A DNA stretch of 64,000 nucleotides, taken from the NCBI RefSeq assembly GCF_020005165.1, contig NZ_JAHCLT010000002.1, forward strand, positions 1 to 64,000, read 5' to 3'. The position numbers and the translations under genes were made by a program. The DNA comes from Kangiella taiwanensis (GTDB lineage Bacteria > Pseudomonadota > Gammaproteobacteria > Enterobacterales > Kangiellaceae). This document shows, piece by piece, positions 2,034 to 3,978 of this stretch (the first letter of the stretch is position 1; every line of letters starts with the position of its first letter). Below the pieces are notes generated by a model, which was not told the origin of the DNA, ran no database searches, and saw only the letters and a list, made by a program, of their open reading frames with translations.

Positions 2034-2060
2034 AAAGCCCTCCAAGATGAGGGCTTTATT
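2034..2060. terminator. Bidirectional Rho-independent terminator
   Basis: AAAGCCCTC (2034-2042) pairs with GAGGGCTTT (2049-2057), with A- and T-rich flanks on both sides. It separates the rightward DUF4124 gene from the leftward unknown cassette ending at 2085 and can serve both. Confidence 0.85.
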
Positions 2061-2084: not shown

Positions 2085-2672
2085 TTACAAAGGATAAGCC
2101 GATACCCATAGAATCCAGCTATAAGCTGTTTTCTCATTAGTCACTGTTCTTCCTGTATGCGACCAACGCTGACTTTCATCCCACTTCATAATTTCAAATG
2201 ATACCGCCGTATTCCCTTCGCGTGCATGAGCAATTTTATCGTCTGGGACCTTGACCATGTAAGAGCGAGAAGCAGGCCCTTTTGCTGCTGCAACCGATGT
2301 ATTTAACACCAATACGCCATAGAGTGGCTCTGGGTTGTTACCGTGGAAAACATGCACTTTTTTACCACCACAGCGTAATCCTTTGTCCGCGCTGTTTAAA
2401 ACATTTTTCCCATTGATACTGCTGAGATCACAACCATAAGTCCATAGATTAGACTGGAATGGAGAGCGGAAGCGCTGCCCACCTTTCAACTCAAAAGACT
2501 TGTCTTCAGCAACAATTGTTAAGCCTTCCTCCACCACACCATGCTGAATAGGCATAGGTGTCTTATTGGTGTAGTTGATTAATCTTGGTGACGGTTCATC
2601 TGATCCCATTGCAAGCATCAGCATTCCAGATATAACAATGGTGCTGGCCCCTACCTTTAACCACTTGTTCAT
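2085..2672 (-). CDS. Exported protein of unknown function (third gene of the RQFGD cassette)
   Basis: I do not recognise this 195-residue protein. It has an N-terminal signal sequence or anchor (residues 1-23, ending L-A-M-G-S), then a soluble region with two internal cysteines (about 81 and 101) that could form a disulfide in the periplasm. No repeats or known catalytic motif are seen. A strong GAGGAG ribosome-binding site precedes the ATG. It starts only 16 nt after the repeat lipoprotein gene on the same strand, so it is probably co-transcribed with it, and it ends the cassette at the terminator 2034-2060. Confidence 0.7.
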   Translation of the reverse strand: MNKWLKVGASTIVISGMLMLAMGSDEPSPRLINYTNKTPMPIQHGVVEEGLTIVAEDKSFELKGGQRFRSPFQSNLWTYGCDLSSINGKNVLNSADKGLRCGGKKVHVFHGNNPEPLYGVLVLNTSVAAAKGPASRSYMVKVPDDKIAHAREGNTAVSFEIMKWDESQRWSHTGRTVTNEKTAYSWILWVSAYPL

Positions 2673-2688: not shown

Positions 2689-3438
2689 TTAATATTTTAA
2701 AATTATACTGTTATTAACATGTCTATAGTTTAAGAAATCATCTCCAGTCGTCACATTAACGACCTCGTGTCCAACAAGACCAGTAATCACAACAGAATTA
2801 ATTGATGGCACTTTAATACATTTATATTGACTAGCTTGATTACCGAATTGACGGCTATCGGCAAGATCTCCAAATTGACGTGAATCTGCATCATCACCAA
2901 ATTGTCGTGAATCTGCATCATCACCAAATTGTCGTGAATCTGCATCATCACCAAACTGGCGTGAATCTGCATCATCACCAAACTGTCTTGAATCCGCAGC
3001 ATCACCAAACTGGCGTGAATCTGAGTCATCACCAAACTGTCTTGAATCTGCATCGTCGCCAAACTGGCGTGAATCTGCATCATCGCCAAACTGGCGTGAA
3101 TCGGCGTCATCGCCAAACTGGCGTGAATCGGCGTCATCGCCAAACTGTCGTGAGTCTGCAGCATCGCCAAACTGTCGTGAATCCGCGGCATCGCCAAACT
3201 GTCGTGAATCCACGGCATCACCAAACTGTCGTCTCATTGAACAAGCTTCAGGAAGAACGAAGTTTTTTCCATTAATAGTGACGAGAGTACTTTGCGATTG
3301 GCTTTTATCATTACTGATTAAAACTAATGGGTGGATACCCACATACGAAGGTTCTTTGGGAGCCACAGAATACGTTGGTCCAGCACATGACTGTAGAACA
3401 ATGGCGCTAGCGGCTAGACTTATCAAGCAAGTTTTCAT
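2689..3438 (-). CDS. Putative lipoprotein built on a 9-residue RQFGD tandem repeat
   Basis: The N-terminus (1-18) is a signal peptide ending L-Q-S-C, a slightly unusual lipobox with Cys18 as the candidate lipidated residue. A short domain (19-69) leads to 14 full copies of R-Q-F-G-D-x-x-D-S (70-195) and a partial fifteenth (196-203). A unique C-terminal domain (204-249) ends the protein. Cys67 and Cys207 flank the repeat block exactly and could close it as a disulfide-bonded loop. Repeat positions 6-7 vary (AV, AA, DA, DS, LA) while R, Q, F, G, D are fixed. The ATG has AAGGAA 8 nt upstream and overlaps the end of the VanZ-like gene by 32 nt. Function is unknown; surface display is an inference. 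Confidence 0.8.
   Translation of the reverse strand: MKTCLISLAASAIVLQSCAGPTYSVAPKEPSYVGIHPLVLISNDKSQSQSTLVTINGKNFVLPEACSMRRQFGDAVDSRQFGDAADSRQFGDAADSRQFGDDADSRQFGDDADSRQFGDDADSRQFGDDADSRQFGDDSDSRQFGDAADSRQFGDDADSRQFGDDADSRQFGDDADSRQFGDDADSRQFGDLADSRQFGNQASQYKCIKVPSINSVVITGLVGHEVVNVTTGDDFLNYRHVNNSIILKY
2830..3231. repeat. 27-bp direct tandem repeat array inside the lipoprotein gene
   Basis: About 14.9 contiguous copies of a 27-bp unit encode the RQFGD repeat. Because 27 is a multiple of three, the other reading frames are periodic and mostly open too, which creates long false ORFs on both strands. Neighbouring copies differ by only a few third-position changes, and some runs are identical, so copy-number change by slippage or recombination would keep the frame. 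Confidence 0.95.
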
Positions 3439-3946: not shown

Positions 3947-3978
3947 TAAAAAAAGCCTGCACAGTTTTAGTGCAGGCT
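3947..3978 (-). terminator. Rho-independent terminator of clpB
   Basis: On the minus strand AGCCTGCAC and GTGCAGGCT form a 9-bp stem with a 7-nt loop (3954-3978), followed by a run of seven T. It lies 22 nt beyond the clpB stop. Confidence 0.9.

Follow-up and report, generated by a model that had tools for sequence, protein, structure and literature searches.

The lipocone superfamily was defined by Burroughs, Nicastro and Aravind in 2025, and the main text of that work (PMC12419801) predicts that its members act on phosphate-linked lipid head groups, with lipid-linked sugar head groups proposed for the VanZ lipocones. Skillet families are described there by an ExxQ motif in H3, an Asp three residues before the H4 Asp and an Asp in H2, together with a helical 'handle' in the linker from H1 to H2. 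The gene downstream of Skillet-1 in its operons encodes an exported protein with a lipobox ending in Gly-Ser, not Gly-Cys, and Skillet-1 is proposed to lipidate this serine (PMC12419801, main text). The window, the whole stretch of 64,000 nucleotides of Kangiella taiwanensis DNA analysed here, carries a candidate module of this kind with one additional gene, which encodes an exported nonapeptide-repeat protein (Table 1).

The VanZ-like protein scored above the gathering threshold of PF04892 (33.6 bits vs a cut-off of 30.1), and when five of its relatives were scanned, two matched under the cut-off and three gave no match. In a 13-row alignment, with helix positions assumed, D72, E108, Q111 and D124 were each present in 13/13 rows and D121 in 12/13, the odd one being the lipocone of genome G037 (L042 5499-5936), which has Thr in its place. 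As judged from this alignment, the protein carries the residue signature that the main text of PMC12419801 gives for Skillet lipocones. The locus shares with the Skillet-1 serine-lipobox operons a VanZ-like protein with ExxQ, D..D and a further Asp, and a Gly-Ser partner with an exported domain. It differs in that the main-text operons consist of a lipocone and a downstream serine-lipobox protein, whereas the Kangiella unit adds the repeat gene; this comparison covered the main text, and the words 'nonapeptide' and 'Kangiella' occur 0 times each in that text.

Table 1. Features of the three-gene unit and its borders, in window positions.
Feature	Position	Strand	Basis or remark
VanZ-like (Skillet-type lipocone) membrane protein, 162 aa	3407..3895	minus	PF04892 E=6.8e-08; alignment
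Nonapeptide-repeat exported protein, 249 aa	2689..3438	minus	ORF; LQSC18 signal end; Cys66 and Cys207 bracket the array
Array, 15 units R-Q-F-G-D-x-x-D-S, residues 70-204	2827..3231	minus	Protein-level unit count
C-terminal flank from Cys207 onward	2689..2820	minus	Predicted beta strands
Exported partner, 195 aa, LAMGS24 signal end	2085..2672	minus	16 bp downstream of the repeat gene
Terminator-like stem-loop, downstream end of the three-gene unit	2034..2057	minus (scored on both strands)	
Terminator-like stem-loop between clpB and the three-gene unit	3954..3978	minus	

The VanZ-like gene lies upstream of the repeat gene, its 3' end overlapping the repeat-gene start by 32 bp, and a convergent DUF4124 gene ends at position 2023, by the downstream stem-loop. 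Six terminator-like sites were found between positions 1950 and 4100 (vs 1.7 expected); promoter-like sites in the same interval were at chance level (5 found vs 4.5 expected) and no promoter is therefore claimed. We then looked at co-occurrence with three profile searches of 394-genome samples of the order, which were taken as the same genomes because the handles shown agree. Matches to the partner profile came from 15 genomes and those to the lipocone profile from 14; the repeat profile also matched 15, of which three were low-complexity matches (G068, G679 and G219), which leaves 12. All 12 repeat-protein genomes also had the lipocone and the partner, and the repeat protein never occurred without both; lipocone and partner were found together in 13 genomes, 12 of them with the repeat protein (Fisher p 5e-22, a value that ignores kinship among the genomes). 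Genome G039 has the pair with no repeat-protein match, suggesting that the repeat protein is dispensable to the lipocone and its partner, and in G223 and G241 only a distant partner homologue was found.

For comparison across lineages, 13 homologues of the repeat protein were used, drawn from nine Kangiella genomes, G037 (same family), G052 and the pair G053/G077 (two other families of the order). The trio recurred in the last four genomes, always with the lipocone gene first; what follows it is repeat then partner in Kangiella and G052 vs partner then repeat in G053, G077 and G037. Within the genus, 11 of 20 Kangiella genomes gave no match to the repeat gene. The clpB-side site was tried in six of these 11: G021 gave no anchor match and the other five lacked all three genes. 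In G022 (L076 2852-4051), a gene for a 399-aa multi-TM-looking protein occupies the place that the trio has in other Kangiella, and the same gene, judged by its first residues, is also found beside the trio in L040, L041, L044 and L100. In G001 (L099 5241-6356), a lipocone-like membrane domain, a lipobox-like MACLF segment and a further exported domain are encoded by one 371-aa ORF.

The partner signal was hydrophobic and ended in Gly-Ser in 13 of 14 lipocone-linked cases (G000, G023, G033, G034, G017, G018, G016, G026, G053, G052, G039, G077 and G020). The exception, G037, ends in Gly-Cys, in the same genome as the D121-less lipocone and a degenerate repeat protein, and the partner homologues of G223 and G241 also end in Gly-Cys, in genomes with no lipocone match at E<=1e-4. 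Gly-Cys partners were thus seen only with an absent or D121-less lipocone, which fits the serine-lipidation prediction, although these are few cases (three exceptions in two lineages). The contrast between Gly-Ser partners with a full-signature lipocone and Gly-Cys partners with none or an altered one offers a natural comparison for lipocone serine lipidation. In the Skillet-1 operons an exported ligand-binding domain (OB, Ig, jelly roll or other) follows the serine lipobox. The window partner had no Pfam match, and a sub-threshold match to the NlpE_C OB domain (E=0.019) was obtained for one of six partners. Besides the window gene, partner-family loci lie at L067 5429-5926 and L068 5413-5910. 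In G052, a PDZ-domain protein gene (L039 5638-6174) forms a fourth gene beside the trio, with a GALGS signal end if it begins at an internal Met.

We propose, with a probability of roughly 45%, that the repeat protein belongs to a Skillet-lipocone envelope module as its third subunit, the one in contact with a ligand, and that its array is a disulfide-closed insertion of fixed size. Such a module would combine a Skillet-type (VanZ-like) lipocone, the nonapeptide-repeat protein and a partner with a Gly-Ser lipobox, and the lipocone would attach a phospholipid to the partner serine, as the main text of PMC12419801 proposes for Skillet-1. Export of the repeat protein would rely on a Cys-lipobox signal in Kangiella, and on an ordinary one in the two other families with homologues; the array ends would be tied to a small beta domain by a Cys66-Cys207 disulfide. 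The 13-15 R-x-(F/L/H/Y)-G units would then present a size-fixed surface, with one invariant arginine every nine residues on a glycine-hinged scaffold. The array would make contact with either the partner or an envelope ligand that carries phosphate or is a glycan, the partner itself or a head group of either kind being the ligand that we favour. A more far-reaching proposal, in which the lipocone lipidates the serine-lipobox protein in replacement of Lgt and the array adopts a new disulfide-closed fold of 13-15 units, for example a ring or hairpin solenoid, is tentative and rather doubtful. The proposed role places an unannotated repeat family in a genetic context and makes its function open to testing, and would likely add a third component to the class of lipocone modules predicted in the main text of PMC12419801.

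The repeat gene itself had been noted in the original prediction as an open reading frame with a strict nonapeptide array, encoding an exported putative lipoprotein with a repeat of no known class, and all of these points were borne out. The frame is real and lies on the minus strand, the plus-strand frame at 2689-3438 being interrupted by stops throughout, and Tandem Repeats Finder detected a 27-bp array at 2866-3232 (13.6 copies, 89% matches, score 482). The N-terminus, MKTCLISLAASAIVLQSCAG, contains a signal ending in the lipobox-like LQSC18 and is followed by a short region ending in LPEAC66, fifteen nonapeptides, YKC207 and a 42-residue tail. A lipobox-like Cys ends the signal in 8/8 tabulated Kangiella rows (by eye, from sequence only), so that the Kangiella protein has the lipobox expected of a bacterial lipoprotein and its lipidation is putative; this Cys is absent from the repeat proteins of G053 and G077 and not apparent by eye in that of G052. 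The protein had no match in Pfam, PHROGs or PADLOC, and in NCBIfam just two matches to the collagen-like SclA/SclB, far under the cut-off (E 0.063 and 0.21). The repeat string was not mentioned in the literature searched. With no credible family-library match, the protein appears to represent a new family inside the predicted Skillet-lipocone kind of module.

In the window array, R, Q, F and G of the unit were each kept in 15/15 repeats, and D5, D8 and S9, which had also been described as fixed, in 14/15 each, positions 6 and 7 being variable. The comparison with homologues revealed what the earlier reading had missed, namely that the family is wider, that its core is shorter, that the number of units hardly varies and that the gene sits in the three-gene lipocone module. 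In 12 of 13 homologues the layout was exactly C-x3-[R-x-(F/L/H/Y)-G-x5]n-x2-C, the residues between the cysteines numbering 3 + 9n + 2, with n of 15 (seven arrays), 14 (four) or 13 (one). These 12 regular arrays amount to about five lineages, because nine of the 13 homologues come from one genus and some form near-identical pairs. Over their 174 units, R1 and G4 were invariant (174/174), position 3 was F in 112, L in 39, H in 14 and Y in 9, and position 5 was D, S, N or G in 148 (summed by hand), acids standing early and Arg late in the unit. D8 was missing from all 13 units of G052. The alignment indicates that the core of the wider family is R-x-(F/L/H/Y)-G, not RQFGD. Only the divergent homologue of G037 broke the spacing rule (Cys-Cys distance 152); in its degenerate array a nine-residue register could be read by eye over 16 units, with R1 in 12/16 and a pN/pS of 0.84. 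Array charge also varied, the arrays being acidic in Kangiella (15 K+R vs 37 D+E in that of the window) and nearly balanced in G053, G077 and G052. A tandem repeat with length and register nearly fixed over such long divergence is a promising place to look for a new repeat fold.

The original prediction had placed Cys67 and Cys207 around the array, which oxidation could close. Cys207 was confirmed, the first cysteine is in fact Cys66, and the bracketing pair is conserved in 13/13 homologues. In the 11 tabulated repeat proteins there was no cysteine beyond this pair except within or at the end of the signal, those of G053 and G077 containing just these two. With the bracketing pair present in all 13 homologues and, in the 11 tabulated, alone outside the signal or lipobox, a Cys66-Cys207 disulfide closing the array is likely. 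We also predicted the structure with AlphaFold2, using the window protein and three relatives as input (four close sequences), and overall confidence was low (mean pLDDT 49.9, pTM 0.32). Strands were predicted before the array (residues 33-61, block pLDDT 59-76) and after it (206-248, block pLDDT 67-77), and structural alignments spanned both flanks as one continuous chain stretch (6km7_A, 44 residues), a weak hint that the flanks pack together. The strands on the two sides would then probably pack with one another, and the array seems to be a large insertion that is closed where it leaves this domain. The array itself had a pLDDT of 36-41 and no secondary structure, residues 71-203 falling under 50. 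The suggestion of a solenoid or a cation-binding charged ladder was not borne out by this model, and a solenoid is unproven since no order was predicted for the array. Helix capping, considered because Gly is always at position 4 with acids early and Arg late, was set aside as AlphaFold2 shows no helix there; Chou-Fasman averages over the arrays were 0.97-1.05 for helix and 0.81-0.91 for strand.

These low confidence values are what would be expected if the array were an intrinsically disordered, disulfide-closed loop making multivalent weak contacts through Arg and aromatic 'stickers' separated by acidic spacers, in the manner of FG repeats. Its low complexity, its acidity in Kangiella and the sole PDB sequence match at E<=1 (9hcj_V0, E=1.2e-06, aligned via an FG-rich tail) point the same way, and the window protein does have FG about every nine residues, as FG-repeat tails do. 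However, the homologues conserve the Arg and the Gly, not the Phe, as position 3 shows, and a cysteine stands on each side of the array. Changes in length are usually tolerated by disordered loops, whereas here the 3 + 9n + 2 rule holds in 12 of 13 homologues, n stays within 13-15 and the units contain no indel. We regard a disordered loop as unlikely, yet as the strongest of the competing explanations.

Alternatively, the lipocone might have the repeat protein itself as its acceptor or ligand, the repeat protein binding for example the lipid or sugar head group on which the lipocone acts, with the Gly-Ser partner as a sensor. In Kangiella and G052 the repeat and lipocone genes overlap or lie end to end, and an acceptor of this kind would suit the lipid-linked sugar head groups proposed for VanZ lipocones (PMC12419801, main text). 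In G053, G077 and G037, however, it is the partner that adjoins the lipocone, the Gly-Ser motif sits on the partner, and G039 retains lipocone and partner with no repeat-protein match, all of which make this explanation quite improbable.

A nine-residue period in an exported, acid-rich array, together with the G4-to-D8 spacing, recalls the RTX nonapeptide beta-roll, in which case two nonapeptides would make each 18-residue turn and the array, or another cation-binding ladder, would fold on calcium. Even-odd similarity between units, as such 18- or 36-residue higher-order repeats would give, was seen at p 0.05 in just three of 13 arrays (G016, p 0.001; G020, p 0.001; G018, p 0.017), the other ten showing no such signal. 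The RTX consensus is GGxGxDxUx, with several glycines and a large hydrophobic residue. By contrast, the array has one invariant Gly per unit and, where the large hydrophobic residue would fall in a hand alignment, an Arg in 174/174 units; D8 is lost throughout G052 and Pfam returned no RTX match. An RTX-like roll is thus very unlikely. The arrays at L040 6953-7708 and L041 7265-8011 showed a higher-order periodicity, of four units (36 aa) and of two units (18 aa), the total still being 15 units.

In the 12 homologues, inner units within one array differed at 54-92% of silent sites with a pN/pS of 0.09-0.47, indicating that most of the units are old and that selection on the protein has kept them similar. 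By this measure the array appears to be an old, selected protein feature, more than chance or slippage would leave. That it arose merely by replication slippage, in a lipoprotein that the cell can do without, and serves no specific function, as a strong 27-bp tandem array, units homogenised in some lineages and the many Kangiella genomes with no match might suggest, was already disfavoured and is hardly credible given this silent divergence with amino acids kept, the nearly fixed size and register and the co-occurrence with two other genes.

Searches beyond these homologues yielded candidates that were all rejected. In a class-wide sample of 369 genomes, the window's own genome alone matched at E<=1e-7, and PDB profile searches (A2, A3) gave no match below E=1; the 9hcj_V0 match is compositional. 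Sub-threshold Pfam matches of the homologues (Ribosomal_S6e, 0.093; DUF6013, 0.48) were set aside, as was a single plasmid match annotated as cadherin-like. Matches dropped as low-complexity non-members were those of G068 (a KRLAEEAEA coil within a long protein), G679, G219 and G094, G112, G115 (another nonapeptide, NARIGSSGY); a G037:C21 match (ESTDST) and an opposite-strand G018 match were also dropped as non-members. Phage matches came from six records, of which the one examined, XMN01041.1 of the Pseudomonas phage Flu_PA14_4 (tblastn E=9e-27), likewise has a nine-residue tandem repeat but with a different unit and without a signal-like start, and the match was read as compositional. This phage protein (L065 1131-2453) is an unrelated nonapeptide array of AASNTGYQS units, and G115 (L020) encodes a different nonapeptide protein with a similar-looking C-terminus.
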